Source: Pyxidicoccus parkwaysis (lineage in GTDB: Bacteria; Myxococcota; Myxococcia; Myxococcales; Myxococcaceae). Taken from it: a DNA stretch of 64,000 nucleotides. Below are positions 8,460-64,000 of the stretch, piece after piece. How positions within the stretch are numbered: the stretch's first letter is position 1; every line of letters begins with the position of its first letter. The notes beneath the pieces were generated by a model that did not search any database, had not been told where the DNA came from, and saw nothing but the letters and a program-made list of their open reading frames with translations. Location of the stretch: NCBI RefSeq assembly GCF_017301735.1, contig NZ_CP071090.1:4578001-4642000 (forward strand), given 5' to 3'. The translations under genes were made by a program, and so were the position numbers.

Positions 8460-8519
8460 TGTCTGACTTCGGGCTCAGGGCTGGAGAGTGCCCCTGACTT
8501 CTGGGGCTCCCAGCTCGGC

Positions 8520-9704: not shown

Positions 9705-9762
9705 CGCTTTTCGGCCTTCGGTCTCCGGGCGAGTCCGGCCGCTGCTGCTGGTGGGCAGACGG

Positions 9763-10493: not shown

Positions 10494-10796
10494 CTACCCG
10501 TCCGCAGTGAGCGTCCAGCGCCCCTTGACCACCTTGTGAAGAATGGAAGCGCTCAGGCTATCCAGCTCGCGGGGCAGCGCTGTTGGGGCGTGGCAGAATC
10601 TGCCTCCTTCAATCGCCTCGGCCACCGCCTCCAGCAGGGCTTTCACGGCCTCGGGGTATGAAACGTCCATGTCGAAAGCCCAGCCGCCAGCGTGGGGCCC
10701 GACGTGGACAGGCACATGAAGTTCGCACGCTACGGCCAGCACCATTGGGAGGATGACACCATTCTCCCGACGACCTGCGCGGATGATGATCGGCAT
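10494..10796 (-). CDS. Small hypothetical protein upstream of Imm11 gene
   Basis: About 100 residues from an ATG at 10796: MPIIIRAGRRENGVILPMVL, then VPVHVGPHAGGWAFDMDVSYPEAVKALLEAVAEAIEGG. It is composed like a small alpha/beta cytoplasmic protein with no signal peptide. The frame is open a further 41 codons upstream, but that part is of poor quality; a start at 10808 is also possible. The ribosome binding site is weak. It lies 152 nt upstream of the Imm11 gene on the same strand and may be cotranscribed. I do not recognise the family. Confidence 0.5.
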   Translation of the reverse strand: MPIIIRAGRRENGVILPMVLAVACELHVPVHVGPHAGGWAFDMDVSYPEAVKALLEAVAEAIEGGRFCHAPTALPRELDSLSASILHKVVKGRWTLTADG

Positions 10797-46040: not shown

Positions 46041-49000
46041 TCACCGGCCCTGCTCCGGGCTCTTCCGGGGCAGGGCTTTTTCGTGCCGGGTGGCCGCGCT
46101 TCGAGTCACCGGGGCCGGTGGCGTCTCGCTGGCGCGGGAGGAGCCGTCCCCGTCCATTGGCGTCATCAGCAGCCCCGGACTGCTGGCCTCCACGGGGGTG
46201 ATGGTGAGCGTGATGGCTGTCGGAGCCCACGTCTCCACGATGACGACGAGGCGCTGCCCCTGCTCGAGATGGATCTGGTTCGTCGCGGTCCCGGAGTGAC
46301 AATCCCAGGTCGTGGTGTTGGTGCCCACGCACGAGTCCAGCCGGGTGGACACATTCACGGGGTTGCCGGGGCCTCCGCCGGCCGCCTGAATCCGGTACAG
46401 GCCCGCCTCGGGCGCGACGAAGTCGTAGTGCCTCGCCGCTCCCCCGAACACGATCTCGCCGCTGAAGCAGCCGGACATGACGTGCTCGTCGTAGGTGGTG
46501 GTGCCGTGGACAGGCATGGCGCTCGGGTCAACCAGGGTTCCGCAGTTGACCTCGTCCTCATCCACCGCGCTCATGCACTGCGGGTCGTCCGGGTAGCCCA
46601 CATGGCCATCCTGCGCACCGGCCGGCTCGCCGTCCGTCGTGTCTCCGCAGGCCGGCAGCGAAGCGGGGTTCGTCTCATCGTCGTCGAGCGGCGAGGAGCA
46701 GCCCGGATCCAACGGGTAGTCCGGCTTGCTGTCCTGGTCGTTGTCGAGGGAGTCCGCACAGCGCGGGAGGCGGCACTCATACGCGTCCGCGGAAATGCTC
46801 CCATCCGGCAGGAGCGTTGGCAGACACGCGGTGTCGAAGGGACACCGGAACCAGGGCTGCTCCGGGTCGCACGTGGCCCCGAACTCCAGGTCCCCGTCGA
46901 TGTGGAGGGTGCCCGTCCCGTGGCCCTCGGCGACGACGTACACGGTCCTCGCCGCATCCATATACCAGGTGGTTCCCGGGATGTTCCCCTCCGTCGGCGT
47001 GCCCCCGCCCGAACTGCCAGGCAGGTTGCACACGATCTCGTCGCGGTCACGCTTGCAGGCGTCACGCAGGGACAGGGCCGTGAACCGGCCTTCGGCGTTG
47101 ACCTTCAGGGAGCCAATGCCCGGCACGCGGATGCCGATGACGCGGTCCACCGTGCCCACGTCCACACACGCGGGCTGTTCGTCATCCGTGGCCGTGGTGA
47201 AGTCGAGCGGGATGATGGCGGCGCCTTCTTCATCCAGGACGCCCACGTCCGCCGAGTCGATAGGGGCCTCGCAGGTGTCTCCCGCACCGCCCGCCTCGGT
47301 GGTGCCGGCCGCGCTTTCGCAGCCGGGGTCCTCGGGCCAGTCCATCCGCCCGTCGCCGTCGTTGTCCACGCCGTCCGAGCACATCGGCGCCACGACCGGG
47401 TCCGTCTCGTCGTCGTCCGCCGGCGAGGAGCAGCCCGGATCCGCCGGGTAGTCCATGACGCTGTCGCCGTCGCCATTGTTCACGCCGTCGCTGCACTGAG
47501 TCGCCAGGCAGCGGTACTCGCTCGAGCCCTCGGAGACGGGGACGCACTCCTGGTGGCCGCACTTGAAGGACTGGGAGCCCGGCTCGCACAGGGCGTTCGG
47601 GCCCAGCACCGCGGCGGTGATCTTCACGCGATGCCGGAGGGCGAGGTTGGACTCCCCTTCGATGATCACCCGGGCGTCCTTCGAGAGGGGGCCGGTGATG
47701 AGCCTGGGGGCGCCGGACGAGCAGTACGTCGCGCCGGTGACCGGCGTACAGGCCGGTGTCCCCGTCATGTCCTGGACGACGACGCGCGGCAGGACTCCAT
47801 CGTCGCTCTCCAGCGTTACGCTGTCGACGGGACCGTCGAACGGCAGCGTGTGCCATGAGCCGAAGGTGATCGCCGAGCCGCCACAGGTGCCCGAGTACGC
47901 CTGCGGCAGGGACACCGACAGCGGCCGGAAGTTGTCATGCCACGGCATGGGGACGGGCTTCGCGCAGCTCGCACCCGAGCCGGTCTCCAGCACCTTCAGC
48001 GAGACGGGTGCCGAGACACCGAAGAGCCCCGGGTAGTCCTGCGCCTTGCCGGTGAGCGCGAACGTCCCCGCCGTCGCGGGTGTGAACGGGTGCAGGTACT
48101 CCTTCGCCACGCCCTCCACCGTGTCGAACTGGCCGTAGGAGGCGCCCACTTGCGTTGTGCCCAGGAAGAACGCGAGCGACTTCACCTGCTTCTCGTCGCG
48201 CACGGTGGCGCGGACCTGGAAGGGCGTGCCGGCCACGGCGTAGTCGTAGTCCGGCGGCGCCACGACGACCTGCGGCGGCGTGTTCGGACGGACTGTGATG
48301 GGCTGGTTGAGCACGGTGGTCTGCCCGCTGTTGTCCGTTCCCTTCGCGGTGAGGATGAAGTCCGCGGCCGGAAGGTCGAAGGAGAGGATGGCTCCGCAGC
48401 CGGTGGAGCCGGGGCAGGACCCGCTGTTCTGCAGGGTGCCTCCATCCGGCAGCGGGACGCTCACCGAGGCCGCCGTCGTTGGGTTGTCGTCCTGCACACT
48501 GACCATCGCAATGGCCGGGTAGCCACCCACCGGAGTCCCGCTGCCGTCCCACCGCAGGAACACGCTCACCACCGGCGGCTTGTCCTGCTTCAGCAGCACA
48601 TGGAGGTACTTCCGCCGCTCGTGGCCCGCCTCGTCCTTGACGATGGCCAGCAGTGCCATGTCGCTGCGGCCACCCAGGTCCGCGACACGCGGGTACTGGA
48701 AGGTGACGGTCAGGCTCGTGTTCAGCTTCTCGGCGATGAGCGTCTCCTGCCCACCCACCACCTCCTGCGTCGACTCATTCCAGACGCCGCCGTAGACGGC
48801 CGAGACGCTCACGCTCTTCAGGTCCCCATCCGTGTCCGCGCCAGTGAGGTTGATCTGGTCCGAAGTGCCCTCCCTCGGGTTCGTGTTCGCGGTGAAGACC
48901 GTGATGGTGGGAGTCGCTTCGGCGGCATCGAGGGTGTAGAGCCGCTCCCCCGAGTCCAGCTTCTGGCCCATCGTGTCCTCCACCACGACGCGCAGCCGGA

Positions 49001-52000
49001 CCTCGTCGCCTCCACGAGTGCCCGTGAGCACCAGGGTGTGGTCGAGGACGTTCCGGGACGCCCCGGTGTAGTAGCTCGTGGCCACGACCGCGCCGTTGAC
49101 ATAGAGGCGCAGGGTGGAGGGACTGTCGCCGTCGTAGGCGCTGAGGGACAGGACGTTCCTTCCAGGCGCCGCGAGCAGGCGCTCCGGCATGCCCTTCAGG
49201 TCGGTGGGCGGATTCGTGCCCTGCCTCAAGGTGATGGACTGCGACACGCGCTGCGTCTGGCCCGCGCTGTCCACCACGTCCACGTACAGCGACGTGGCCC
49301 CGAGGCCCAGCGGGGGCATCCTGAGCGTGGCCCGGTAGGAGCCCGCCGAGGCCGGCACCGGCGACAGCGCCCCGAGGAAGGTGTCGCCCACGCTCGCCGT
49401 CACCGTGTACGGCGCCACACCCGAGCTGACCTTCACCGAGATGTCGAACGGTTGCCCCCCGGAGTAGATGCAGCAGGCGGGCGACAGCTCACCGATGCTG
49501 GCCGACAGGAGCTCCGGCGACTGCGGCGCACCCACCCGGATGACCCGTCCCTCGGACACCGTCTCCACGCCTCCCGCGCTCCGCGCCCGGACCTGGAGCA
49601 CGTACTCCGTGCCCGCGCTCGCGGATGTCGGCACGCGCCACTGGCCCGATGCGGCCATGGGCTCGATGCGCGACCACGGCTTGCCATCCACCAGCAATTC
49701 CGCGTCGTCGGCACGCAGTCCGGAGACGAGCGCCTGGAAGCCCACGAGCTTCCCGGCGGGCACCTCCGTCTGCGCCAGCGGCTGCAGCATGCGCGCCGAG
49801 GGCGCGACGGCCTGGCCCGGAGCCGGGAACACCTTCACCCCGGCGTAGCCCTGGGCGACGACGACGAGCTCACCCACGAGCACGGCGTCACGCGCGTCCA
49901 GCGCATCCAACACCGACAGACGCACCGGCGTGGTGGGCGACACGTCGAACAGCTCGACACCCTTCTCCGTCGTCACGAGCGCCAGCCGGCCCGACATGCG
50001 GATGCGGCGGACGGTGTTCGTCGTGGCCGTGCCACGCAGCGTGAGGCCCGAGCTGCCCAGGGTGTAGACACGGATGCCGGTCTCGTTGCCGGCGATGGCA
50101 ATCCCGCCCTCCAGCGCCACGACGTTCGCGGGCACGTCCGTCACGCCCGCGCGCCGGATGAGCGCCCCCGAGCGGTCAAACTCGACGACGCTGAGACCCG
50201 AGGTGCCCTGCGCCACGACGGCCTGACGCTCGTCGCCCGCCACGTCCACCACCGGCCCCTGCAGGTCGAGCTGCTGCAGTTGCTGCACGCCCGGCAGCGT
50301 CACCGTCGAAACGATTCCCGTGCCCACGGCCCACAGCCGGCCCGGCGCCGCGTGGAAGCGGTCCACGACGCCCAGATCGCCGAGGTCCTTTCCGCGGCCC
50401 AGCGGCTCACCGTTGTAGCTGCCATCCGAGAGCTTCAGCGCCAGCACCGACAAGGTCTTCCCGTTGAGCGTGAAGACGTCATTGCCGACGCGCTCGACCT
50501 GCCGCATCTGGGTCTGCGTGGAGACGTCGCGGACCTTGACGAGCTGCGCGAGGTTGCCGACGTCCACAAGCGTGGCGCCCTTCTGGCCCGCGGCCAGCAG
50601 GAAGCCACGACGGGACGGTGCCAGCCCCACCGCTGCATCCAGGGTCGGGTATGAGCCCAGGACGCGGGGCAGCTCCGAGACAGCAGGCGTCACGAGCGTC
50701 TTCAGGACGAGCCCCGCGTCCGTGGTGGCCACCAGCAGCCCTCCGGACAACGTGAGCGACGTCACCGCCAGCGTCTCCTGGCTCACGAGGCGCGGCGCAT
50801 AGGGCTCGCGCACATCCACGACCCGCAGCGCGCCGTCGTCGCACGCGACATAGGCCATGCCGCCTCCCAGCGCGAGCGCACGCACGCCCGTCCCGAGCGG
50901 CAAGCCTCCCTGCCGCGTCATGCTTCCCGCGGCCAGAGCGACCACCTCCACGCCCTGGTCCGTTCCCGCCACCAGCGTCGTTCCATCCACGTCCGCGTTG
51001 CGGATGGTGTTGTTGAGGATGACCTCGTACCGGGTGCCGAGGGCCTCGCCCGTGGACAGGGGGTACGCGCGGAGGTGGTTCTGGTTGGGGATGTACAGGG
51101 CATCCCCGGTCATCGCGACGATGGGCAACTGAGTCTCCGCCTCCGCCACCTCCTTGAGGTGCCGGAACGACGGATCCTCCGGCACCGAGAGGTCCAGCTC
51201 GTCAATCCAGGCGTCCCGCACCGCGATGGCGCGGCCCAGCACATCGAGGGACTGCATCCCCGAGGAGTGGGTCGTCTGTCCGACGATGCGGGGCTGCTCG
51301 GGCTGAGAGACGTCCAGCACCACGGCGGCGCCCGATGGCATCCGGACGAGCACATGGCGGCCCAGGATGACGAGCGACCTGGGCGCGCTGTCGAGCGTCA
51401 CCGTCGACAGCGGCGTGACGGACGGAGCCGAGGCCCCGCGCACCAGCCGGCCCACCGACACGCCCGTGGGCGTGGTGGCAATGACGAGGTCGTCCAACAG
51501 CGCCACGTCACCGGCACGCGCGAACGTGCCGCCCACCACGGCCCCACCCTCCGCCAGCGCGGGTGGCACCACCAGGCGCTGCTTCTTGAGCTCGGCGGGG
51601 TTCCCCTCGTCGTCCACGGCCCAGGCGCTCACCTCGAGCACCTTCCCCGAGGACGTGCCCACGGGCACCACGTAGCTGACGGTGCGCCCGCCCGTCATCA
51701 CCAGCGCGCCGTCCAGCGTCACGCGCAGGCCGAGCGACTCCACGGGCAACGTGTCGTCCTCCGCGGACATCCTGGCGGTGACGACGGACCCCGCGGCGAC
51801 GACCGTGCCCGCGGGCTCCACGACGAACTGGCTGATGGTCGGAGGGCCGCTCGCGGTGACCGACACCGTCGTCTTCGCCGTGGACTCGACACCGTCCTCG
51901 TCGATGAGCCGCGCGGTGACCCACACGTTCTGCGACGCCGTCAGGTACGGCATGCGGAGCGAGGCCGTGGTCGCCGGAGAGAGGACGACCAACTGCTCCT

Positions 52001-55000
52001 CGGCCGAGGCCTCCGTGAGCCCCACGGACAGGCGCAGCTCGTAGCGCGTGGGCGCGGGCCGCACGGAGGTATCGAAGCTCACCTGCACCGCGGCGAGGCC
52101 GCCCTCGGTAACAGACGTCGCGGGCGGAACCAGCGAGAAGAGGTGCCCCTCGGGGTGGGCGTTGGGAAGGATGAGGATGGGCTTCGGCGGGGAGGTGCCG
52201 GAGTCGGTGCCGTCAAAGGCGACGGCCTCGAGCGTCACCGCGTGGCCCATGGCCGGCGGCGTCGGAGTGAGCTTCGGCACCCGCAGCGTCGCGGTGAAGG
52301 CCGGCGCCTGGACGGTGGCCGAGGCGAGCTCCACCGCGCCATCGCGCAGCGTCACCGTGACGGACTTCACGCGGGCCGGATCCACCGGCTTCGCCACCAC
52401 GGTGAGCAGGCTCTTCTCCAGCACCGCGTCGGGCGCCTGGAGCGCCTCGAGCATCGGCCCTGAAGGCGGGGCGGACAGGGCCACCGTGGTCCGGTCGCTC
52501 CGGACATTGCCGGCGTGGTCGCGCACCCGCAGCTCCAGCGCCGCGGACGTACCGGTTGCCGGCAGCTCCACGCCGCCGGGCAGCTCGCTGTCGAGCACCT
52601 CGACGAGGTGACCATCGAGCAGCAGCTCCGCGGAGTACGCGTTGAAGGCGTCGACCTCGTCGTTCACCACCGGCGCCAGCGCGAGCCGTGTCCCGGCCAC
52701 TCCGGCATCCGGCGCGCCGAGCGAAACCTCGGGTGCCATTGGCCCACGGCCGAGCGAGAGGCGCGACACCGTGCGGCCGTCGGCGGCGAAGATGTCGCCG
52801 CCCTGCACAATGGCCGCTCCCGTCATGGCTGGGAAGTGGCCCACGGCCAGCGGATACGCCGCACCGACCACCTGCGCCGACCGCGCGTCATACACCCGCA
52901 GCCCCTTCGCCGTGCCGACGACGAGCCACGGACCGAAGGCCGATGTCGACACCGCGGGCGAGTCCAGCGGAGCCACGCCGGTGCCCAGGTCCTCGAGCCC
53001 GGAGTCCTTGACCTCGTAGCAGCGGACGAAGTTCGTCCCCAGGACGCAGGCCCGATCCTGTCCCACGGCGGAGACCGTCGTCGCGTCCGGCTCACTCCGC
53101 CATGCCTTCGCCTCCGGCGCGTGTGGCACGGAGAGGTCCAGCGCGGAGAGGCGGGTCGCCCCGAGCACCAGGGCGCGCGTCCCGTTCGCGGCGAGCGCCT
53201 TCACCGGCTCACCCGGCAGGCGCGCGGCGAGCGCACCGGACGCCGTCCGGACCTCGACGCCCTCGTCGGTGCCCACCAGCAGCAGCGAGCCCCGCGCCGC
53301 GGCCAGGGCCGAGGGCGGCCTGCGCACCGGCACGGTGATGGAAGTGCCCGCCACGTTCGGCAGCGGCAGCAACTCGACGGCGCCAGCACCCGCGCGCCGC
53401 ACGGCCACCGCGAGCCGGTCACCCACGAAGGCCAGGCCCACGGGCCGGCCCGCCAGCGTGCGCGAGCCGATGACATCCAGCGTGGTGCGCGAGCGTAGCT
53501 CGACGATGCTCCGTCCCACCTCGTCATCGCGGAGCACGGCCCAGTCATCCCCTCGCGCCGCCACACCCACCACGGCCTGCGACGTCCCCGTCTTCACCAT
53601 GGTGGGGCCACGGGCGAAGACGGCCAGCGTTCCGAACTTCTCGGCCGCCAGTCGCTGCGAGCCGGTCTCCAGCGCCTCCACCGTGGCGACCACCGGTGCC
53701 GCCTCGTCGCCGGTGGGCAGCTCGAAGTCATTGCCGCCCACCGAGGGCACGGAGGCATCCGCCACGCGCAGCGACGCCACGGGAGTCACGCCCCCGTCGA
53801 CGTTGTCGACGTGCAGCGTGGAGCCACCCAGCCACCGCGGCCCCTCCGGCCTCGTGACGACCTGGACCCGGGGGGACGTCCCATTCTCAGCGGGAGTAAC
53901 GGTGTAGATCTTCACCGCGGGCTCGCTCTGCTGCCCTTCCTTGTCGGTGACGATGGCACGCACCATCAGGGAGCGCTTCTTGCCGTCGATGAGGCGCGGC
54001 GTGGTGAAGGAGCGACTCCACGGCTCCTCCGTGAGCGTCACCGCCTGGTTGTCGAACTCGATGCGCACCGAGGTGACACCCGCGGGCGCGGTCGCGTAGA
54101 CCTTCACCTGGTACGACGCGCCCTCAATGAGCTCGCTCTTCGGCGACTCGGGCGCGGCGATGATGGCGAGCGGCCGCGACGAGCCCGGAATCGGCTTGAC
54201 GACCGTGACGGTGAGCGAGGCCGCGCTCTCGTTTCCACGCTGGTCGCGGGCCGTCACCCGCAGCTCCACCGGAGTGTCCTCGGACACGGCGGGCGCCACC
54301 CAGCGCACGGCACCGGGGATGCCCGCGAAGGTGAAGAGCTCCTTCGGAGCGGCCGGCCCCACGGCCTGGGTGATGGACGTGCTCGCGATGCGACCGTTGT
54401 CCGAGATGGACACGCGCAGGTCCATCGCCGTTCCGGAGAGGATCTTCGCTCCACTGGCCGGAAGCTTCCACGACACCACCGGCTTCGTGCTGTCGCGGTT
54501 CACCGTCACCTGGAGCAGCGCCGGAGGCGAGCTCTGGCCGCGCGAGTCGATGGCCACCGCGACCAACTCGTGGACCTCGGCCGTGTCGCCCGCCAGCTCC
54601 AGCCGGAGGGCGTCCGTCAGCTGCTCGTCTTGTTTCCCGCTCTGCACCGTGACGCGCTTGAGCGGCGCGCCGTCCATGCTGAGCTCGATGGCGCTCAGTT
54701 GTTCGTAGTCATGCGCGGACACCACCAGGTCGAGCGTCTCGCCCTCCGTGCCCGTATAGGCCGCGGTGGCGGGCGACGCGAAGGTCGCCGACGGCACTTG
54801 GTCACTGGTCACATCCACCGTCGCGGTGGCTTCGCCGACGTTGCCGGCCTTGTCCTTCACCTTGGCCTTCAGCGTGGACCTTCCGCCCGCAGGAATCGTC
54901 CGCCACGTGTACTTGAACTCCTTCTTGCTCTTGCCATCGGTGAACGCCGGCACCTGCTGGGTGTCGACAAACAGCTCAATGGAGTCGAGCTGCTGGCTGT

Positions 55001-58000
55001 CGTCCGAGCCCGACACCACGAAGGTGTATTCGGTCCCAATGCCCAGCGTGGCCCCGCTCACTGCTCCGGTGCGTCCGGAGAAGGCGAGCGTCACCTTTGG
55101 AGCCACCACGTCCACGGCATCGAAGGAGTGCGTCAGCGGGCCTTCCAGCTTGTTGCCCGCCACGTCGAACACGTTCGCCACGCGCATCGTGTAGCGCCGC
55201 GTCGACACGAGGTCGTCCGCCTGCGCGGGCCGAGTGAAGGACAGCATCGTTCCCGAGACGCTCGGCGTTCCCTCCAGGGCCGTTCCGGTCTCGGTGTCGA
55301 TGAGTGCCACCTCGGTGACCGGCTCGGTGCCCAGCACCACCGTCTCGTTGAAGGTCGCGCTGAACACCTTTTGCGCCAGGGGCACCCTGCCCGCCGGAGC
55401 CCAAATCGGAGTGTTCGTCGGCGGCTTCAGGTCACTGCGTTCAATCGACTTCTCCAACGGGACGCTGCTCCCCGGCTGCGTGATGTGCACGAGCACCGTG
55501 CCCAACTCACCCGCGGGCACGTACGCGCGCACGCTGACCGGCGTGAACCCGTCCAACTGCGCCGGCAGGGTGTCCGAACCGAAGCGCACCTGCATGCCAC
55601 GGGTGAAGCCGCTGCCCTCCAGCGTCACCCAGCCGCCCGAGGCGTCCACCACCGACGGGGTGATTTTGGCGACGACGAGCGGCGTGGTGTAGACGAACCC
55701 GCCCGGCACCTCGGCGACGCTGCTTCCACTCACCACCGACACGCTCACCGGTCCCGCGAAGAGCGTGGACGGAGCGATGACGCGCAATTGTTCCGGGGTG
55801 GCCTCATGCGTCAGGTCATCCGCCGCGGCCACCGAGCCGAAGTACACCGTGCTTCCAGGCAGGAAGCCCGCGCCGTCAATCGTCACCACGGTGCCACCGG
55901 CCACGGGGCCATGGTCCGGCGAGATGCCCGTCACGGAGACGGCCGCCGCCCCCTCGCCACCGAGGAACCGGAACGACCAGTCGCCCAGCACGCTGCCTCC
56001 GACGAAGCCCGTCGGCTCGAGGTGGACGCGCGCCGTGTACTCGTGTCCCGGCACGAGCGCGTCGCGCGGCTGGAAGCGCAGCGTCGAGCCCGAGCGCGAC
56101 ACGGACGACGACGGCACGACGACGCCGTCATCCAGCAGTGCCAGCGTCGACCCGGTCGTCACCGTCAACGGCAGCTCGCTCGCGAACGACACCGCCACGG
56201 GCGCGCCCCGCGCGAGCTCGGCCCCCGGCACCGGCACCGTGCGGGAAATCGTCGGGTACGGCAGCGTGTCGAAGAGCTGCGCGGACTTCGCGTTGCCCAC
56301 CAGCGCGAAACCGTCTCCCAGCAGGGCCCTCGGTGTGTCCCCCACGGCATGCGTGAAGAACGTCCGCTCCGCGAAGCCGGAGGACGCCGTGGTGTCGATC
56401 CACGCGCCACGCTTGCTGCCCACGGCCAGCAGCCATGGACCGGACAGCGTCACCGACTGGGGAATCTCCCCATTGAGTCCGCTCGACACCCAGGTGCCCA
56501 GCGGCTGGGGACGCGACGGAGTCGTGGCATCCACCACGTGGGCGGCATTGCCCGTGGCCACCGCGATGCGACTGCCCTCCACCGCCAGCGCACGCGCGGT
56601 GCCCGTCAGTCCTCCCACCGTGCCGAGCACCTTCAGCTCACCGTCCTGGAGGCTGCGCAGCTCGACGCGCGAGACCTGGTTCTCCTCCAGCAGCACGGCC
56701 AGGGCCTTGCCCGCCATGCCCACGCCAGCGATGCGCGCCGGTGCCACGGAGACCTGCGCCACCACCTCGAGCTCACCCTGCAGCTCGCCCAACAGCACGA
56801 GCTCGCTGCCGCCCGCCACCGCCACCGTCTTCGCGCCCCGGTCCGCCGCCACCGACGTCAGCGACGCCTCGGCCACCCACTGCACACGGTCCAGCTCCAT
56901 CGGGTTGCACGCGACGGCCGGGCCGCTGCCGCACGAGCCCAGCTCGTAGCGCACCAGCTCATGCTCGCCGAGCAGCACCGCCCGGGTGCCGCCCACCGCC
57001 AGGGCCGTGGCCCCGCTCACACCGGGCACGCGGCCCAGCTCCAGCTTGTTGCCCGTCGTCGAGAGGTCGATGGCGACCAACTCGCCGTTCCGAGCCTGCA
57101 GCAGCGTGCTGCCCACCAGGGCGCTCGCGCTGCCGATGGAGTCCAGCTTCTCGCGCTCCGCGAGCGTGAAGGTGAAGCCTCCAGGCAGGCTGCTCGCCAT
57201 GGAGGTGCTCGAGCCCGTCGGCGTCTCCACCCTCAGGTCCACGGCCCCGACGATGCCGTCCGGCACCGTCACGAGCAGCGCGCCCGTGGAATCCACCGAC
57301 GTGGCCCGCGCCGGCACGCCCGAGAACGTCACGCGCGAGCCCGCGTACAGCCCCTCACCCTGAATCCTGAGCTGCGCCCTGCTCATCGTCGGCGCGGACG
57401 CCGGCTCCACCTTCGAGACCTTCGGCGTCACCAGGTAGCGGTACGCGCCCAGCCGCGACGCGGACAGGCCGTCCGGATTGGTGATGCGCACCGCCGCCGC
57501 CCCCGGTGCTCCCGGAGGTGCGACGACGGTGACGACCTCGCCTCCAGCGGACACCGCGCAGGGGCCAGCGCTGGTGGCACCCGCCGGCTTGTCGCCGATG
57601 AGCACCGTGCACCCAGACCTGAAGTCCTTGCCGTGAAGGACGAGCGTCTCGCCTCCCGCCGTCAGGCCGTACGCCGGCAACACCCCGGCGAGCACCGGCC
57701 CCGCCAGCTCGGTCATCGAGGCCGTCTTGAAGCGGACCTCCGTGTCCGTGCCCAGCTTGCCACCCGCCATGTCTGCCAGCTCACGGCCCACCTTGAGCAC
57801 GTACTCCGTGCCCGGCACCAGGTCCGCCGTCGGGTCCACCACCACGCGCCCGCCGCCCTCGTCGGAGCGCACGGACACCACTGCGGACACGCTGGCGCCA
57901 GCCACCGTCTCCAGCCGCACGTGGGCCTGCGCCGAGGCCGAATCCGGCAGCTCCGTGAGGAGCACCGCCGGGGAGAGGCCCACCGGCACCGTCTCGCCCT

Positions 58001-61000
58001 CGGACGGAATGGTGCCGCGCACCTCCACGTGGTCCAGCTCCACGGAGGCCACCAGCCCCGCGAGCGGACCTTCGCCCGTCTCCGGAGGATGGATGGGCAG
58101 CTCCGTGGGCCGCCCGCCCTTGTCGAGGACGAACGTGCCCACCATCAGGTAGCGCCCCATGAGCGCCAGCGACTGCGCGTCACCGGTGACGATGGCATCC
58201 TCGAGCTTCGTGGGCGTGCCCGTCGCGGGTACGCGGAAGCGCTGGACCTTGCCGCCACCCGCCGCCACGTAGGCGATGCCCGCGGCAATCCGCGTCTGCT
58301 CCGCGGACACCCTGTGGGTGTTCATCACGTCCTCGAGCTGCAGCGGCGTCGCGAGCGTGGGGCTCGCCGGCACCTTCAGCTCGACGACGGCCACCTGGGC
58401 CTTCGCGCCGAGCGACACGAAGGCGCGCGAGCCCTCGGTGGTGATGTGGCGCGCCGGACCGGCCAGGGCCACGCCGCCCACCTCGTTCAAGTCACCCCTG
58501 CGCGCGTCGAGCACGAGCAGCCGCGGTCCACTCATTCCCTCGGCAGCGGCGAGCAGGTAATCGCCGTGGATGGCCAGCGCCGTCACGCCGCCCGGAATCG
58601 CGCGCTGGTACGTCAGCCGGGGCTGCGGGTCCTCCGAGGTCCGGTACGCCCGGACGCCAGCGGCGTCACCGGCGAAGACCATGTCCCCGTCCGCGACGAC
58701 GGCCACCGTCGCACCCGTGCCGGGCAGCGAGTACTTCAGCGCCGGAGCGGAGGGCCGCGTCACGTCCACGACCTTCAGTCCGCCCTTGCCCGCCGCCACG
58801 TAGAGGAGGTTGCCGGCTCGCGCGAGCTGATACGCGCCCGAGCCGGAGCTGTCGGTGAAGTCGAGCCGGGCGAGCTCCTTGAGCGCCGTGGGCTCCGACG
58901 GGTCGGCGACGTACAGGCCGCCCGTCGGGTACGAGCGCAGGCCACCGCCCTCGATGTCCGCGCCGTTGGGGCCGGTGACCATCACCTCGCCACCGATGGC
59001 GCCGAACACCACGCCGCGCTCCGCCAGCACGTGCCGCAGGGGCGGCGTCTTCAGCCGCGCCACGGCGCCCGCGCCGTAGAGGAACGAGCGCGGACGCACG
59101 TTCTCCTGGACCTCCGGCACACCCTCGGAGTTGTAGCTGGGGACGGTCAGCTTCGCGGTGATGTCCACGATGCCGGCCGCGTGCGGCGGCGCCACGGCCA
59201 CCGCGCTCTCCGCCGAGCGCACCCGCACGTCGAAGGACGGCTGGTCGCCGAAGAAGAGCTTCATGCCCGGCATGAAGCCCGTGCCGGTGAACGCAATCTC
59301 CGTCCCACCCTGCTGCCCGGTGCCATCCGGCGTGGGCGCGCTGATCTCCAGGATGTCGCGGTAGAGGAAGCCGCCCACGCGGACGGCGGACGTTCCACCG
59401 CCCTCGTACGCGACGGACACGGACGCGAGGCCCGCTGCCGCCGAGGGCGGCACCTGGACGGTGAGCTCCGTCCCCGCATCGTTGCGGACCACGCTGCCCG
59501 CGCCGGTGATGGCCTTGCCACCCACGCGGACGGTGAGGCCGTCGGCGAAGCCCTGGCCCTGGATGAGGACCGGCGTCGTCCGCGTCTTCAGGCCGCTGGC
59601 CGGAGAGATGCTCGTGATGACCGGCTGCGGCCGGCCGAGCGAGTCGACGGTGAAGGAGAACTTCGCCTCGGTGGCCAGGGGACGGGGATTCGTCTCGCCG
59701 GAGAGGGTGCTCTCGATGCTGCCGGCGGCAAGAGTGACTTCGACCTCTTCACCGGGCACAAAGGGCGTCGCGTCCTTCGGCAGGAAGACGATGGACGAGC
59801 CCCGCACCTGCGTGAAGACGACGGAGCCGGTGCCCTCCACCGGGCGGCCCTCCGGCCGCGGGTGCGACGCGGAGTAGGCCTTCACCACCAGCTCGTTCGC
59901 GCCCAGCGACGCCGGGCTCACCGGCAGGGTGAAGTCGATGCGGACCTGCGCGTTCGCCGACGCGACGGAGCCCGGCGTGGGCGCGTAGCCCACCGCGAGC
60001 AGCTCCGTGGGCGGCACCTCCACCACCGTCTGCGACGCGTCGCGCGTGGCCACCAGCAGGCTGCCGCCGTACCACGTCAGGCCCTGACCGTCGGCCACCA
60101 GCTGCGTGGACTGGAGCTTCACGGGCGCCGCCTCGTGCGCCTCGGACACGTCGAAGACGTACAGCCGCTGGCCCACCGTGACGTAGGCGCGGCCCGCGCG
60201 CACCGCCACGCGGCTACGAAGCAGCGTGTCGACGTTGGAGAGGGCCGCGTCGACCACCACGCCGCCCTTGCGGTTGCCCTGGCGGTCGAAGATGGCCAGC
60301 CGCAGGCCGTTGCCCACGGACGCATTGACGGCCGACGTGAGCACGTAGAAGCGGTCCGCCCCCAGGTCCAGCGCGAGGCCGTCCTCCGGGTACAGCGGCA
60401 CGGAGCGCACGAAGGTCAGCGCGGGACTGCTCACGTCGAACACCTGAATCTGCCCGCTGGCGGTGCCCGGCTGCATCACGCTCGCGTAGGCCAGCGTGCC
60501 CTCGATGCGGACGCCTGCGGCGACGCCGCCCGTCGTCACGCGTCCCACCTGGAAGGGCTGCTTCGCGTTGGACACGTCCACCGCCGTGAGCCCCGCGCCC
60601 TCGGCCAGCAGCGCCAGGCGCCCGCTCACGTCGAGGCTGCGCACCGGCGCGCTCGTGGACAGGCCACCCAGACGGATGGGCCGCTCCTCGAGCATCACGT
60701 CGAAGATGTCCAGCCCCACCGCGTTGGACGGGCCGTCCACGCCGACGTACAGCGTGTCACCCACCAGCTTCAGTTCGGAGGCCTGCTTGGGCGGGTAGCC
60801 CGGCAGGTCCAGGTTCGCGCCGAACGGCATGTCGTACGCGAACACGCCCACGGGCACCCCACCCTCCGGGCCATCCGGAATGCGCAGCGACACCTGCACC
60901 AGGCCGGCCTGCTCGGAGGCCGGCACCGTGAAGCGCAGCGTGCGCAGGTCGACCACGTCGGCCGCCGTCGCGTCGATGTCGCCGACCCGGACCGTCGTGC

Positions 61001-64000
61001 CCGGCACGAGCGCGTCCCGGTCCAGCGTCACCGTCACACGCGTGCCACCGGACACGGGCCCGTGCTCCGGAGACAGCGTCGCGCGGGCCCGGCTCGGGTC
61101 CTCGACGTACACCAGGGCGGAGATGAGCTCCGAGCGGGGCCCGCCCACATGGGTGCTGACCGCCACGTCCACGGGGCCGGCCTGGTCCGCGGCCGGAGCC
61201 ACGATGGACAGCCGGGTGCCCTCGCCGGACATGCTGCAGGTGCCGGCCGTGGCGCAGTTCACCAGCTTGCCGCCAATCTCGACCCGCTCGTCTCCCACGA
61301 AGCCCGACCCCTCGAGGACGAGGGTGCCGCCGCTCTCACGCAGGAGCGTCTGCGGCGTCACGGCCGCCAGCGTCGGCATGCGGCTGCCGGCGACGCCCGT
61401 GGTGAAGCGCGCGAGGAAGGGCAGCAGCAGGTGCCCGCCGTGCTCGTCCGTGATGGCCGTGTCCAGCCGCAGCTCGTACTTCGTCTTCTCCTTCAGCGTG
61501 CCGTCGACCTTGACCTTCACGGTGTAGAGCTGGTGCAGGTCGTCCTTCTCCACCGACACCAACCAGCCCACCTCGCGGCCGTCGGCGCCCAGGGCCGTCG
61601 TGCCGCCCTCTCCGACGAACCGGACGGTGCTCGTGGTCACGGTGTCCTCGGTGAGGGGCCGGTTGAAGCGCACCACGAACTCGGGGCTGCCGGGAGCGAT
61701 GAGGGACTCGCGCTCGGGCGTCACGCCGGTGACGAACGAGAACGGCACCTTCAGCTCGGTCAGCCGGTCGCGCCCCGCCAGCATGAGGCGGTCACCCGCC
61801 GCCAGCGAGTCCATGGACACCTCGGTGTTGCCGCCACTGACGCGGATGGGGTTCCGCGGGTCCGACACGTCCACCAGCACCACGCCGCCCTCGTTGGCGG
61901 ACACGAAGAGCATGTCCCCCAACAGCCGCAGGCGCTGCGGCTGTCCCGGCGTGTTGGACAGGTTCTCGTCGAAGCGGATGCGCAGGTCCTTCAGCTCCGC
62001 GAATTTCTCCGGGTCCGGGTCGCCGACGTCGAAGAAGAGCAGGCCCAGCTCGGGGGCCGCGACGATGGCCGTGTCCCGCACCACCACCACATCGGTGAAG
62101 TTGACGTCGTTGTACGAGATGCGCTTCAGCCGCGCGGCGCCCGGGCGCGCGGATGCGTAGATGTCCAGGTGCCCCTCCGGGTGCTGCGTGCTGCCGGGCT
62201 TCGCGAAGTACGACGTGCGCTGACCGCCACGCGCGCCGCCACCGAGCGAGTACTCCGGAGGAGGCGGCATCTCGCCTGTGTCCGTCGGGCAGTAGCGCAC
62301 GCCCTCGTGCTGGCCGGAGGCCACATAGAGGCGGCCCCCCTGCACCGTCATGCCGTAGGGCTCGACGCCCACATCGATGCTTCCCACGAGCAGCGGGTCC
62401 GAGGGGAAGCGCGTGTCCAGCAGGCGCAGCACGCCCCCCGTGCCCGCCGCGGGCTCAGTGCCTTTGCAAGGCGGCGCATTGGGCGCCGGGTTCGGCACCA
62501 GGTTGTTGAAGGCCACCCAGCCGCCAATGGACGTGGGCAGCACGCGCGTGGCGAACTCCGGCTGGGCCCAGGTGCCGAACCTCGCACCGCCCACCTTCGC
62601 CATGGACCGGCTGTTCGAGCTGGCGACCGTGAGGCCCGCCGCGCCGTTCGCGACGAGCACCTGCTTGCCGCGCATCGCCACGTCCAGCGAGTCCACCGTC
62701 AGGTCCACTTCCGGCCACGGCGTCTCAGGAGGCAGATAGCCGAGGAGGATGGCCTGGAGCCGGTCGACGCTCGCGATATCCGTCTCCGCCATGGACTTCA
62801 CCGCGGCGGAGCCAGCCGCGGGAGCGCCAGGCGTTCCCACGTCGAAGGTGCTCACCGCGAAGGTGTCGATGAAGCGACCGGGCTTGTTGTATTCGCCGTT
62901 GTAGGTCGTGGAGATGCGGTTGCCGTTGATGGACGCGCCCGCGGACGCGTAGACGAAGGCCGGGTCCTGCGGGTCGGCGACGAGCGACTTCGGGTAGACG
63001 CCCGACACCACCACCGTGCCGGACCCCGGCGGCGTCGCGGACTTGCCGCGCTCCAGGCCGTAGCCCACGGCCCTCGCCAGGGTGCTGACCTCGTCGAGGT
63101 CGGAGCTCGAGCCACCTTCCCTGCCGTCCGCGAGCCTCGACCGGACGATGACCTGGGCGAAGCCATCCGCGCCGAAGGAGCCCGACGGCGCCGTCGCCGT
63201 CAGCTCTCCGGTGGACACCACCGCCACGGACGTCGCCTCCTGTCCGCCGATGCTCACCGTGGGCACGCCGGTGGCGTAGGCCCAGGACGGCAGGAAGCCG
63301 TCGCCGAAGATGCGGACCTTGCTGCCACCGAGCGGGTTGAGGAAGCGCGGCGTCACCTTCTCCACGTAGAGCGGCGGCTTGTACAGGAAGCCGCCGGGCC
63401 GGCGAGCCGCCAGGCCCGAGCCCGACACGAGCTCGCCCTGGGCATTGAGACTGCCGTTGATGACCACCACGTCCGCGAGACCCGGCGCGGCCCCCTTGGG
63501 AATGACGACCTCCAGCCGCGTGGGCGAAGGCGTCCCCGACGACAGCACCGTGGCCACCTTCCCGCCGATGAGGACCGTCGTCTCGGTCGCGAAGTCACTG
63601 CCGAGAATCTGCACGATGCTGCCGCCCTCGAGCGGCCCCACGCGCGGCACCACCTGCGCGATGCTCGGACGCGCGCCGGTGTCCCGGGCCGTCTCGAAGT
63701 CCACCTTGAACGGCGCCAGCAGGTGCCTGGCATCCGGGGTGAGCAGCTCCGTGGACACAGACAGCCGCACGCCCTGCCCCGCCGGCAGCGGGTGCTCCTT
63801 GCGGAAGCGGATGACGGCCGTGCTGACATTGACCGATTCCGAGCCCACCTCCAGGTCCGCCTGCGGGCCCGTCTCGGGCAGCGGATCCGGGCACGACGCG
63901 TCCAGCGTCGCGGCGCTCTGCGCGGACAGCCACTCCGCGCACCCCACCCGCAGCGACACCGCCTTGCGAGCGCTCTCCGGGGTGACGGCGGTGGAGAACG
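46041..64000 (-). CDS. Giant IPT/Ig-like/beta-propeller surface protein (5' end outside window)
   Basis: An open frame of about 5,985 residues; the reading frame continues through the right edge, so the N-terminus and any signal peptide are missing. It contains at least ten IPT/TIG-like domains (for example ISPDHGPVAGGTVVTIDGAGF and LPAYGLTAGGETLVLHGKDF), SbsA/Big_5-type Ig domains (VPGHEYTARV, VPGTEYVLKV), later Ig-like repeats (STKPVVSWKLP), and several beta-propeller stretches with LVIVD-type motifs (LRVVDVREPYAP, VLVDVSDPRNP). The C-terminal 550 residues carry four acidic cysteine repeats (CSDGVDNDGDGRMDWP and relatives), likely Ca2+-binding, and a beta-sandwich near DFVAPEAGLYRI. No C-terminal membrane anchor is seen. 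It is probably an extracellular adhesin or matrix-associated protein; that is inference. Confidence 0.88.
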   Translation of the reverse strand, partial: FSTAVTPESARKAVSLRVGCAEWLSAQSAATLDASCPDPLPETGPQADLEVGSESVNVSTAVIRFRKEHPLPAGQGVRLSVSTELLTPDARHLLAPFKVDFETARDTGARPSIAQVVPRVGPLEGGSIVQILGSDFATETTVLIGGKVATVLSSGTPSPTRLEVVIPKGAAPGLADVVVINGSLNAQGELVSGSGLAARRPGGFLYKPPLYVEKVTPRFLNPLGGSKVRIFGDGFLPSWAYATGVPTVSIGGQEATSVAVVSTGELTATAPSGSFGADGFAQVIVRSRLADGREGGSSSDLDEVSTLARAVGYGLERGKSATPPGSGTVVVSGVYPKSLVADPQDPAFVYASAGASINGNRISTTYNGEYNKPGRFIDTFAVSTFDVGTPGAPAAGSAAVKSMAETDIASVDRLQAILLGYLPPETPWPEVDLTVDSLDVAMRGKQVLVANGAAGLTVASSNSRSMAKVGGARFGTWAQPEFATRVLPTSIGGWVAFNNLVPNPAPNAPPCKGTEPAAGTGGVLRLLDTRFPSDPLLVGSIDVGVEPYGMTVQGGRLYVASGQHEGVRYCPTDTGEMPPPPEYSLGGGARGGQRTSYFAKPGSTQHPEGHLDIYASARPGAARLKRISYNDVNFTDVVVVRDTAIVAAPELGLLFFDVGDPDPEKFAELKDLRIRFDENLSNTPGQPQRLRLLGDMLFVSANEGGVVLVDVSDPRNPIRVSGGNTEVSMDSLAAGDRLMLAGRDRLTELKVPFSFVTGVTPERESLIAPGSPEFVVRFNRPLTEDTVTTSTVRFVGEGGTTALGADGREVGWLVSVEKDDLHQLYTVKVKVDGTLKEKTKYELRLDTAITDEHGGHLLLPFLARFTTGVAGSRMPTLAAVTPQTLLRESGGTLVLEGSGFVGDERVEIGGKLVNCATAGTCSMSGEGTRLSIVAPAADQAGPVDVAVSTHVGGPRSELISALVYVEDPSRARATLSPEHGPVSGGTRVTVTLDRDALVPGTTVRVGDIDATAADVVDLRTLRFTVPASEQAGLVQVSLRIPDGPEGGVPVGVFAYDMPFGANLDLPGYPPKQASELKLVGDTLYVGVDGPSNAVGLDIFDVMLEERPIRLGGLSTSAPVRSLDVSGRLALLAEGAGLTAVDVSNAKQPFQVGRVTTGGVAAGVRIEGTLAYASVMQPGTASGQIQVFDVSSPALTFVRSVPLYPEDGLALDLGADRFYVLTSAVNASVGNGLRLAIFDRQGNRKGGVVVDAALSNVDTLLRSRVAVRAGRAYVTVGQRLYVFDVSEAHEAAPVKLQSTQLVADGQGLTWYGGSLLVATRDASQTVVEVPPTELLAVGYAPTPGSVASANAQVRIDFTLPVSPASLGANELVVKAYSASHPRPEGRPVEGTGSVVFTQVRGSSIVFLPKDATPFVPGEEVEVTLAAGSIESTLSGETNPRPLATEAKFSFTVDSLGRPQPVITSISPASGLKTRTTPVLIQGQGFADGLTVRVGGKAITGAGSVVRNDAGTELTVQVPPSAAAGLASVSVAYEGGGTSAVRVGGFLYRDILEISAPTPDGTGQQGGTEIAFTGTGFMPGMKLFFGDQPSFDVRVRSAESAVAVAPPHAAGIVDITAKLTVPSYNSEGVPEVQENVRPRSFLYGAGAVARLKTPPLRHVLAERGVVFGAIGGEVMVTGPNGADIEGGGLRSYPTGGLYVADPSEPTALKELARLDFTDSSGSGAYQLARAGNLLYVAAGKGGLKVVDVTRPSAPALKYSLPGTGATVAVVADGDMVFAGDAAGVRAYRTSEDPQPRLTYQRAIPGGVTALAIHGDYLLAAAEGMSGPRLLVLDARRGDLNEVGGVALAGPARHITTEGSRAFVSLGAKAQVAVVELKVPASPTLATPLQLEDVMNTHRVSAEQTRIAAGIAYVAAGGGKVQRFRVPATGTPTKLEDAIVTGDAQSLALMGRYLMVGTFVLDKGGRPTELPIHPPETGEGPLAGLVASVELDHVEVRGTIPSEGETVPVGLSPAVLLTELPDSASAQAHVRLETVAGASVSAVVSVRSDEGGGRVVVDPTADLVPGTEYVLKVGRELADMAGGKLGTDTEVRFKTASMTELAGPVLAGVLPAYGLTAGGETLVLHGKDFRSGCTVLIGDKPAGATSAGPCAVSAGGEVVTVVAPPGAPGAAAVRITNPDGLSASRLGAYRYLVTPKVSKVEPASAPTMSRAQLRIQGEGLYAGSRVTFSGVPARATSVDSTGALLVTVPDGIVGAVDLRVETPTGSSTSMASSLPGGFTFTLAEREKLDSIGSASALVGSTLLQARNGELVAIDLSTTGNKLELGRVPGVSGATALAVGGTRAVLLGEHELVRYELGSCGSGPAVACNPMELDRVQWVAEASLTSVAADRGAKTVAVAGGSELVLLGELQGELEVVAQVSVAPARIAGVGMAGKALAVLLEENQVSRVELRSLQDGELKVLGTVGGLTGTARALAVEGSRIAVATGNAAHVVDATTPSRPQPLGTWVSSGLNGEIPQSVTLSGPWLLAVGSKRGAWIDTTASSGFAERTFFTHAVGDTPRALLGDGFALVGNAKSAQLFDTLPYPTISRTVPVPGAELARGAPVAVSFASELPLTVTTGSTLALLDDGVVVPSSSVSRSGSTLRFQPRDALVPGHEYTARVHLEPTGFVGGSVLGDWSFRFLGGEGAAAVSVTGISPDHGPVAGGTVVTIDGAGFLPGSTVYFGSVAAADDLTHEATPEQLRVIAPSTLFAGPVSVSVVSGSSVAEVPGGFVYTTPLVVAKITPSVVDASGGWVTLEGSGFTRGMQVRFGSDTLPAQLDGFTPVSVRAYVPAGELGTVLVHITQPGSSVPLEKSIERSDLKPPTNTPIWAPAGRVPLAQKVFSATFNETVVLGTEPVTEVALIDTETGTALEGTPSVSGTMLSFTRPAQADDLVSTRRYTMRVANVFDVAGNKLEGPLTHSFDAVDVVAPKVTLAFSGRTGAVSGATLGIGTEYTFVVSGSDDSQQLDSIELFVDTQQVPAFTDGKSKKEFKYTWRTIPAGGRSTLKAKVKDKAGNVGEATATVDVTSDQVPSATFASPATAAYTGTEGETLDLVVSAHDYEQLSAIELSMDGAPLKRVTVQSGKQDEQLTDALRLELAGDTAEVHELVAVAIDSRGQSSPPALLQVTVNRDSTKPVVSWKLPASGAKILSGTAMDLRVSISDNGRIASTSITQAVGPAAPKELFTFAGIPGAVRWVAPAVSEDTPVELRVTARDQRGNESAASLTVTVVKPIPGSSRPLAIIAAPESPKSELIEGASYQVKVYATAPAGVTSVRIEFDNQAVTLTEEPWSRSFTTPRLIDGKKRSLMVRAIVTDKEGQQSEPAVKIYTVTPAENGTSPRVQVVTRPEGPRWLGGSTLHVDNVDGGVTPVASLRVADASVPSVGGNDFELPTGDEAAPVVATVEALETGSQRLAAEKFGTLAVFARGPTMVKTGTSQAVVGVAARGDDWAVLRDDEVGRSIVELRSRTTLDVIGSRTLAGRPVGLAFVGDRLAVAVRRAGAGAVELLPLPNVAGTSITVPVRRPPSALAAARGSLLLVGTDEGVEVRTASGALAARLPGEPVKALAANGTRALVLGATRLSALDLSVPHAPEAKAWRSEPDATTVSAVGQDRACVLGTNFVRCYEVKDSGLEDLGTGVAPLDSPAVSTSAFGPWLVVGTAKGLRVYDARSAQVVGAAYPLAVGHFPAMTGAAIVQGGDIFAADGRTVSRLSLGRGPMAPEVSLGAPDAGVAGTRLALAPVVNDEVDAFNAYSAELLLDGHLVEVLDSELPGGVELPATGTSAALELRVRDHAGNVRSDRTTVALSAPPSGPMLEALQAPDAVLEKSLLTVVAKPVDPARVKSVTVTLRDGAVELASATVQAPAFTATLRVPKLTPTPPAMGHAVTLEAVAFDGTDSGTSPPKPILILPNAHPEGHLFSLVPPATSVTEGGLAAVQVSFDTSVRPAPTRYELRLSVGLTEASAEEQLVVLSPATTASLRMPYLTASQNVWVTARLIDEDGVESTAKTTVSVTASGPPTISQFVVEPAGTVVAAGSVVTARMSAEDDTLPVESLGLRVTLDGALVMTGGRTVSYVVPVGTSSGKVLEVSAWAVDDEGNPAELKKQRLVVPPALAEGGAVVGGTFARAGDVALLDDLVIATTPTGVSVGRLVRGASAPSVTPLSTVTLDSAPRSLVILGRHVLVRMPSGAAVVLDVSQPEQPRIVGQTTHSSGMQSLDVLGRAIAVRDAWIDELDLSVPEDPSFRHLKEVAEAETQLPIVAMTGDALYIPNQNHLRAYPLSTGEALGTRYEVILNNTIRNADVDGTTLVAGTDQGVEVVALAAGSMTRQGGLPLGTGVRALALGGGMAYVACDDGALRVVDVREPYAPRLVSQETLAVTSLTLSGGLLVATTDAGLVLKTLVTPAVSELPRVLGSYPTLDAAVGLAPSRRGFLLAAGQKGATLVDVGNLAQLVKVRDVSTQTQMRQVERVGNDVFTLNGKTLSVLALKLSDGSYNGEPLGRGKDLGDLGVVDRFHAAPGRLWAVGTGIVSTVTLPGVQQLQQLDLQGPVVDVAGDERQAVVAQGTSGLSVVEFDRSGALIRRAGVTDVPANVVALEGGIAIAGNETGIRVYTLGSSGLTLRGTATTNTVRRIRMSGRLALVTTEKGVELFDVSPTTPVRLSVLDALDARDAVLVGELVVVAQGYAGVKVFPAPGQAVAPSARMLQPLAQTEVPAGKLVGFQALVSGLRADDAELLVDGKPWSRIEPMAASGQWRVPTSASAGTEYVLQVRARSAGGVETVSEGRVIRVGAPQSPELLSASIGELSPACCIYSGGQPFDISVKVSSGVAPYTVTASVGDTFLGALSPVPASAGSYRATLRMPPLGLGATSLYVDVVDSAGQTQRVSQSITLRQGTNPPTDLKGMPERLLAAPGRNVLSLSAYDGDSPSTLRLYVNGAVVATSYYTGASRNVLDHTLVLTGTRGGDEVRLRVVVEDTMGQKLDSGERLYTLDAAEATPTITVFTANTNPREGTSDQINLTGADTDGDLKSVSVSAVYGGVWNESTQEVVGGQETLIAEKLNTSLTVTFQYPRVADLGGRSDMALLAIVKDEAGHERRKYLHVLLKQDKPPVVSVFLRWDGSGTPVGGYPAIAMVSVQDDNPTTAASVSVPLPDGGTLQNSGSCPGSTGCGAILSFDLPAADFILTAKGTDNSGQTTVLNQPITVRPNTPPQVVVAPPDYDYAVAGTPFQVRATVRDEKQVKSLAFFLGTTQVGASYGQFDTVEGVAKEYLHPFTPATAGTFALTGKAQDYPGLFGVSAPVSLKVLETGSGASCAKPVPMPWHDNFRPLSVSLPQAYSGTCGGSAITFGSWHTLPFDGPVDSVTLESDDGVLPRVVVQDMTGTPACTPVTGATYCSSGAPRLITGPLSKDARVIIEGESNLALRHRVKITAAVLGPNALCEPGSQSFKCGHQECVPVSEGSSEYRCLATQCSDGVNNGDGDSVMDYPADPGCSSPADDDETDPVVAPMCSDGVDNDGDGRMDWPEDPGCESAAGTTEAGGAGDTCEAPIDSADVGVLDEEGAAIIPLDFTTATDDEQPACVDVGTVDRVIGIRVPGIGSLKVNAEGRFTALSLRDACKRDRDEIVCNLPGSSGGGTPTEGNIPGTTWYMDAARTVYVVAEGHGTGTLHIDGDLEFGATCDPEQPWFRCPFDTACLPTLLPDGSISADAYECRLPRCADSLDNDQDSKPDYPLDPGCSSPLDDDETNPASLPACGDTTDGEPAGAQDGHVGYPDDPQCMSAVDEDEVNCGTLVDPSAMPVHGTTTYDEHVMSGCFSGEIVFGGAARHYDFVAPEAGLYRIQAAGGGPGNPVNVSTRLDSCVGTNTTTWDCHSGTATNQIHLEQGQRLVVIVETWAPTAITLTITPVEASSPGLLMTPMDGDGSSRASETPPAPVTRSAATRHEKALPRKSPEQGR
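46047..46081 (+). terminator. Strong terminator-like hairpin, plus orientation
   Basis: GCCCTGCTCCGG and CCGGGGCAGGGC form a 12-bp stem with one G-T pair, a 6-nt loop, and a TTTTT tract (46077-46081). In plus orientation this is a textbook intrinsic terminator. It lies over the last codons of the minus-strand giant gene, where the T-tract is on the wrong side. It may stop antisense transcription running on from the NRPS. Confidence 0.65.

Follow-up and report, generated by a model that had tools for sequence, protein, structure and literature searches.

A giant exported protein of Pyxidicoccus parkwaysis genetically paired with an RHS toxin: a candidate contact arm

What does a bacterium do with a single protein of more than 10,000 residues? 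The question is raised by a stretch of 64,000 nucleotides of the Pyxidicoccus parkwaysis genome (hereafter the window; C1:4578001-4642000 of a genome assembled as a single contig of 13,211,253 bases), in which a minus-strand frame of 5,985 open codons (46041-63998) exits at the window edge. From these letters the original prediction had described a secreted mosaic protein of more than 5,985 residues and had remarked that in bacteria a role is known for few proteins so large. The remark is still true, and the genomic partnership described below now gives the protein, which we call the giant, a specific and testable role. Because its gene always lies beside a toxin gene with a swappable tip, an immunity gene and two foldase genes, the giant is probably the contact arm of a weapon, that is, an arm displayed on the surface with a variable tip, which would serve, with an RHS toxin as its partner, to kill neighbours or to recognise kin. 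The flanking DNA was also examined, with the window numbering carried on past 64000 (extended coordinates), and the surveyed genomes are given codes such as G003.

The giant gene and its RHS partner

From stop to stop, the frame of the giant covers extended positions 46041 to 78104. Its only sensible start is a GTG at extended 77936 (genome C1:4655936), with a GGAGGGG box just 5′ of it and no internal stop thereafter. The sequence following this start, MPRFSSNGVRAALVAWVFLGFALVAHAQTS, is a standard Sec signal peptide, and the N-terminus reads as a textbook case (MPRFSSNGVRAALVAWVFLGFALVAHA, followed across the cleavage site by QTS). The complete protein has 10,631 residues, among them 786 prolines, with a mature mass of 1,098 kDa and an isoelectric point of 4.96. 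The frame is kept open in dozens of orthologues of 9.8-12.7 thousand amino acids (kaa) with about 40-76% identity, the ratio of nonsynonymous to synonymous substitution rates (dN/dS) is below 1 in each 500-codon block, and the GC content of the three codon positions is 0.70/0.52/0.92. On these grounds the giant is a real gene and a chance open frame was ruled out; an antisense open reading frame (ORF) at 53811-63998 (plus strand, 3,396 aa) was treated as a shadow of the high third-position GC on the minus strand. The frame that had been predicted is thus genuine but cut by the window, and the extension proposed as a check yielded both the N-terminus and the export signal on whose absence the claim of secretion was to fall.

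Directly upstream of the giant lies an RHS gene (extended 78963-92300, minus strand) which encodes a lipoprotein-type protein of 4,445 aa. This protein carries immunoglobulin-like (Ig), TTR-like (E 0.0065) and DUF6531 domains, RHS_repeat/YD repeats and an RHS-associated core (RHS_assc_core, TIGR03696, 59.8 bits for a cut-off of 32.5). The partner measures 4,400-6,100 aa across loci, and the conserved region of about 1,300 aa that precedes its YD shell found no PDB relative in a profile search. The giant and RHS genes are adjacent in 27 of the 27 loci that have both on one contig. In the 22 loci that were mapped (21 with the giant, one a deletion scar), the pair was found wherever the contig reached far enough, in either order. 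Of 195 Myxococcota genomes, 37 have colinear orthologues of the giant and 35 have the RHS core; these 35 are all giant carriers, and the core is never found alone. Further matches to the RHS query were short TTR-region matches and were not counted as RHS core. The two genomes with only a giant are drafts: the giant of G111 extends up to the end of its contig, and that of G038 is cut off by a contig edge, with PpiC, one of the foldase genes, on another small contig. Furthermore, giant and RHS copy numbers agree in genomes with two modules. As the genomes are related, these counts are not independent observations. We consider a joint function of giant and RHS toxin very likely.

The C-terminal tips of the RHS proteins, taken as the 325-404 residues past the final DPxG-type motif, differ in nearly every locus. 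RHS cores are 36-89% identical between loci, whereas tips are mostly at 11-33% (46% in one pair), at or near random, and this divergence persists where the giants are 90-96% identical. The closest pairs, with cores at 85-89% and tips at 16-30%, display the tip exchange of RHS polymorphic toxins. Core distances follow giant distances closely (Mantel r 0.96, p 0.0001), as opposed to tip distances (r 0.17). In most loci the RHS gene overlaps by 4-8 nt at its stop with a small ORF, which has the position of a downstream immunity gene. In G022a this ORF encodes a SUKH-3 immunity protein (Pfam, 41.1 bits for a cut-off of 23); at the present locus it encodes 149 aa (extended 78970-78521) of no recognised family. 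Also typical of polymorphic toxins are the orphan RHS 3′ module of G058 and, in G004, an orphan fragment of a tip. As read from sequence, the swapping of tips together with changing immunity-type ORFs, including SUKH-3, is a toxin signature.

Three prolyl isomerase (PPIase) genes, all with Rotamase domains, were resolved by a tblastn map. PpiB and PpiC are PpiC-type prolyl-isomerase lipoproteins of the module: PpiB occurs only in giant-carrying genomes and in matching copy number, and PpiC is restricted in the same manner except for relics. PpiA, which is divergently transcribed, is a general gene of the order beside which the module sits. The commoner order is PpiA (divergent), PpiB, giant, PpiC, an optional small RHS gene, RHS toxin and immunity gene; at the present locus and in its clade it is PpiB, PpiC, RHS, immunity gene and giant. 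A YD-repeat protein of about 1,300 aa lies between giant and RHS in G000b, G017, G018 and G023 (cluster c11; L111, L009, G000:C1:3863881-3867897).

A second giant is encoded in the same genome (C1:3830328-3862391, 10,687 aa); it is colinear with the first, with 40% identity over 10,087 alignment columns, and has a different tail. A search with the N-terminal 600 aa recovered the family from 14 of the 27 genomes of the genus, and beyond it from further families of the order. Carriers include Myxococcus, Pyxidicoccus, Corallococcus and Citreicoccus species, metagenome-assembled genomes of Myxococcaceae and a strain with the deposited name M. xanthus AM003. Within the genus most giants measure 10.3-10.7 kaa, a striking constancy; outside it they range from 9.8 to 12.7 kaa. 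Presence within the genus is patchy and the module is lost jointly, leaving relics in G007, G016 and contig C7 of G010. At the scar in G007 (C1 about 9095158-9102763; L112-L113) PpiA is still intact, whereas PpiB is reduced to a fragment and the giant to two short pieces, one of them interrupted by an internal stop. In the single-contig genome G017 (C1 about 3872651-3905000; L080, L081) the giant is split, its first ORF ending at 6,118 aa; because the module genes downstream keep their usual spacing, this is a frameshift, a pseudogene or an assembly error. On G010:C5 (L082-L086) two giants surround one RHS gene in a span of about 80 kb; the order is giant, RHS, PpiB, second giant, and past the latter there is another RHS gene. 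The longest relative, with 12,676 aa and a tail containing 134 cysteines, is found in G058 (C1 about 2632902-2693000; L075-L078), where it adjoins a 6,109-aa RHS protein and an orphan RHS end of 531 aa.

Domain architecture and variability along the giant

The domains were mapped with hidden Markov models (HMMs) built on giant orthologues and iterated, and by Pfam and NCBIfam scans of segments. Pfam matches were obtained to Big_7, TIG, Big_5, LVIVD and Big_13. In all, the giant contains 35 Big_7-like, 8 Big_5 and 14 TIG domains (57 Ig/TIG domains) besides a Big_2 pair, and about ten propellers. In the structure model, two beta-sandwich domains (about 34-254) follow the signal peptide. Then come the Big_2 pair (about 250-450), which is related to Ig domains of a bacterial teneurin-like protein (TLP), SbsC and LigA, and 21 Big_7-like domains (459-2977). 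Seven consecutive units of propeller, Big_5, TIG and TIG form the middle (about 3000-7490). Beyond the seventh unit lie an eighth Big_5 with four Big_7 (to 8010), a probable propeller, four further Big_7 (8401-8784), a probable double propeller (to about 9377), six Big_7 (to 9980) and the tail, whose cysteine repeats scored 38.7 bits against NCBIfam acid_disulf_rpt, just below the cut-off of 41. Hence the domains listed in the original prediction were well recognised: the window holds exactly ten TIG, with Big_5 (SbsA-type), Big_7, LVIVD-type propellers and four acidic cysteine repeats, and the alternation of Ig and propeller blocks it described proved very regular. Table 1 gives the features by position.

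Table 1. Positions of the giant's segments and of the adjoining gene in the window
Feature	Giant residues	Window position	Strand	Basis
Giant gene, 3′ part with stop (5′ part outside window)	4647-10631	46041..64000	-	Open frame to GTG 77936, Shine-Dalgarno box, Sec signal peptide, colinear orthologues
Rest of unit 3: Big_5, two TIG	4647-4939	63120..63998	-	Family HMMs, Pfam TIG/Big_5
Unit 4: propeller, Big_5, TIG, TIG	4940-5689	60870..63119	-	Family HMMs
Unit 5: propeller, Big_5, TIG, TIG	5690-6260	59157..60869	-	Family HMMs
Unit 6: propeller, Big_5, TIG, TIG	6261-6908	57213..59156	-	Family HMMs
Unit 7: propeller (inferred from spacing, without LVIVD match), Big_5, TIG, TIG	6909-7489	55470..57212	-	Family HMMs
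Ig block: Big_5, four Big_7-like	7490-8010	53907..55469	-	Family HMMs; Pfam Big_13/Big_7
Probable propeller	8011-8400	52737..53906	-	Sequence character and spacing between Ig blocks
Four Big_7-like Ig domains	8401-8784	51585..52736	-	Family HMMs
Probable double propeller with LVIVD repeats	8785-9377	49806..51584	-	Family HMMs
Six Big_7-like Ig domains	9378-9980	47997..49805	-	Family HMMs
Hypervariable distal segment	9500-10000	47937..49439	-	Pairwise identity; raised dS
Type A C-terminal tail, exchangeable: four acidic double-disulfide repeats, two PPC-like beta domains	9981-10631	46044..47996	-	
Kelch-repeat lipoprotein gene, 499 aa, Cys-rich C-terminus		44445..45944	-	Immediately downstream of giant

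Internal BLASTP at 1e-8 gave no near-identical repeats within the giant, which rules out a recent tandem self-duplication; the mosaic is therefore old. The AlphaFold model of one unit (residues 2985-3625; mean pLDDT 89.7) shows a propeller and, after it, three Ig-like domains. Its best Foldseek neighbours were the ectodomains of MET and plexin, in which a propeller also precedes IPT domains; because the global TM score is only about 0.3, this is a likeness of plan and not functional evidence. The N-terminal model matched generic multi-Ig strings, among them S-layer proteins, ice-binding adhesin repeats and the neck of GhpA.

Variability is distributed very unevenly along the protein. Closely related giants hardly differ over their first 7,000 residues, and divergence climbs toward the C-terminus. 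The giants of G003 and G012a, 90% identical overall, fall to 54-57% at residues 9500-10000 versus about 93% elsewhere. Concomitantly, their synonymous divergence (dS) jumps at residues 9501-10500, a sign of segment exchange by recombination. Up to residue 7,500 dN/dS lies between 0.1 and 0.5, and distally between 0.3 and 0.66. Furthermore, two types of tail alternate among giants, type A with acidic double-disulfide repeats and PPC-like domains, and type B with Gly-rich repeats. The distal pattern is one of relaxed or diversifying evolution with recombination and, with dN/dS below 1, is no proof of positive selection. Such variability would fit a C-terminus that faces the target.

Among the neighbouring genes, the Kelch lipoprotein has relatives close to the giant in four further loci (G003, G002, G019, G022a) and does not belong to the conserved core module. 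Convergent with the giant is an ORF of 10,084 aa (window 14180-44434, plus strand) with an N-terminal condensation-like and a C-terminal thioesterase domain, resembling a non-ribosomal peptide megasynthase. A further cluster of large ORFs (c25) recurs beside the giants of G019 and G012b.

A contact arm and its alternatives

The following sequence of events may be proposed. The giant passes the inner membrane by Sec, as its signal peptide predicts. PpiB and PpiC, judging from linkage and co-occurrence, would be dedicated foldases for its proline-rich Ig/TIG domains, about 60 in number, and its ten or so propellers, and would fold the giant, the RHS protein or both. By analogy with its family, the RHS lipoprotein would reside in the outer membrane with the toxin tip inside the YD shell. 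Judged by the number of its domains, the giant may form a fibre perhaps 250-300 nm long that projects from the cell, anchored by its conserved N-terminal end, so that the fast-evolving, exchangeable C-terminal end would touch neighbours. Contact would bring the RHS toxin to the target, with killing of non-kin or prey, and kin would be spared through the matching immunity gene. It is conceivable, and we propose it tentatively, that such pairs form a hitherto undescribed class of two-polypeptide, contact-dependent RHS antagonism, in which a separate 1.1-MDa fibre with dedicated prolyl isomerases gives a surface-lipoprotein RHS toxin its reach and target specificity. The pairing would then account for one family of giant genes in bacteria. 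It predicts a physical complex, and one giant belongs to a strain with the deposited name of M. xanthus, which is a tractable species. The suggestion of contact or prey adhesion in the original prediction, made there without a reason, is plausible and now finds support in the RHS partnership, the immunity-type ORF, the module-specific PPIases and the fast-diverging distal end.

Several observations weigh against the giant being a contact arm. Scans of its segments with Pfam and NCBIfam revealed no receptor-binding, adhesive or membrane-anchoring domain, and no MYXO-CTERM or other C-terminal sorting tag was seen in the tail sequence. The giant has the export signal and the long repeated Ig-like stalk of an adhesin; lacking the adhesive domain and surface anchor, it is classed as adhesin-like rather than as an adhesin. 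No outer-membrane exporter that could take it to the cell surface is linked to it, and the C-terminus-outward direction of display is deduced from variability only. Tight linkage and vertical descent suffice for correlated trees, and genetic pairing is no proof of a physical giant-RHS interaction. Finally, most of the toxin tips, including the one here, belong to no recognised family, and those searched gave no Pfam toxin family above cut-off.

The obligate co-occurrence and co-divergence of giant and RHS would equally be expected if the giant were an assembly, export or protective scaffold that docks, stabilises or exposes the RHS protein on the producer, another factor binding the target. 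The strong constraint on the N-terminal 7,000 residues and the interaction surfaces offered by Ig strings and propellers agree with such a role. However, a scaffold has no obvious need for a hypervariable, recombining distal end or for alternative tails, and a reach of one hundred nanometres or more would be waste; we therefore regard this explanation as unlikely. The matrix building suggested in the original prediction fares worse. A secreted matrix or biofilm protein that is a mere neighbour of the toxin locus would suit, by architecture alone, the Ig strings, the acidic pI of 5.0, the acidic disulfide repeats and the S-layer/LigA-type Big_2 pair. This is hardly credible in view of the strict co-occurrence with RHS, PpiB and PpiC, the matching copy number, the joint loss and the changes of gene order that keep the set together; matrix building thus receives no support.

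The sema-propeller-IPT ectodomains of MET and plexin, the best structural neighbours of the repeating unit, bring to mind a pair for non-lethal cell-cell recognition or social motility, comparable to teneurin-latrophilin or MET/plexin in animals, in which tip and immunity gene would serve signalling or self-recognition. Moreover, insertions in the M. xanthus rhs gene MXAN_6679, a possible member of the RHS family studied here, alter motility and predation (PMC10433427, PMC3150448). The structural similarity is, however, globally weak, and the swapping of tips with changing immunity-type ORFs speaks for a toxin. Non-lethal recognition is accordingly very unlikely in our judgement, and the contact arm of a toxin remains the explanation that we prefer.

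Comparison with known systems

Foldase genes beside genes for very large exported proteins have a precedent in PrtM/PrsA with PrtP, where a PpiC-type lipoprotein foldase is encoded in this position. That system differs in being Gram-positive, and its large protein is a protease and not a toxin partner.

GhpA of Aureispira, which acts in ixotrophy, is likewise a giant extracellular multi-Ig contact protein of a predator, and its structure 9flp is among the fold matches of the giant. GhpA is a heptamer secreted by the type IX secretion system and paired with a type VI secretion system (T6SS) (PMC11205867); its likeness to the giant is one of fold.

The giant module would work much as the CdiA/CdiB system of contact-dependent inhibition (CDI) does, with a long surface arm, a variable receptor region, a swappable toxin tip and an immunity gene. 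In CdiA, arm and toxin form one polypeptide exported by CdiB, whereas the giant module uses two genes with no TpsB-type exporter seen. Neither CdiB domains nor CdiA domains of the two-partner secretion or haemagglutinin-repeat type were found in the giant, the RHS protein or the neighbouring genes scanned.

Other relevant proteins are the TLPs (PMC13018210; PDB 9ifo, 9pt5), which are surface-lipoprotein YD-shell toxins of many Myxococcota with a TTR-like domain, N-terminal Ig domains, a variable toxin and a downstream immunity gene, whose delivery is stated there to be unknown. The Big_2 pair of the giant matches TLP Ig domains with an E value of 1e-38. For the RHS partner, agreement is limited to the TTR-like match (E 0.0065): its core and pre-shell profile matched no TLP structure in PDB, and no NHL/FN-plug was recognised in it. 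No giant partner is described in the accessible text of that paper.

In M. xanthus, Rhs4 and Rhs5 are exported proteins of about 4,000 aa that kill non-kin without T6SS, and the delivery of large myxobacterial Rhs toxins with signal peptides is only presumed to be CDI-like (PMC10433427). With these proteins, MXAN_6679 and WapA-type RHS, the RHS partner shares its size and export, C-terminal toxin tips that can be exchanged, and an immunity-type gene downstream. In the open-access literature we found no giant or PPIase partner of Rhs4/Rhs5-type or WapA-type RHS, nor an earlier description of an Rhs-PPIase-giant module, of LVIVD in Myxococcus or of giant Ig-like myxobacterial proteins; as the search covered open-access papers, the novelty is provisional. 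In contrast to Rhs4, Rhs5 and WapA-type proteins, the RHS toxin here is tied genetically to a protein of more than 10,000 aa and to two module-specific PPIase lipoproteins. Present and absent together with the RHS core, the giant is a concrete candidate for the missing delivery part, and a two-polypeptide RHS system, if true, would supply the delivery partner for large exported Rhs toxins.
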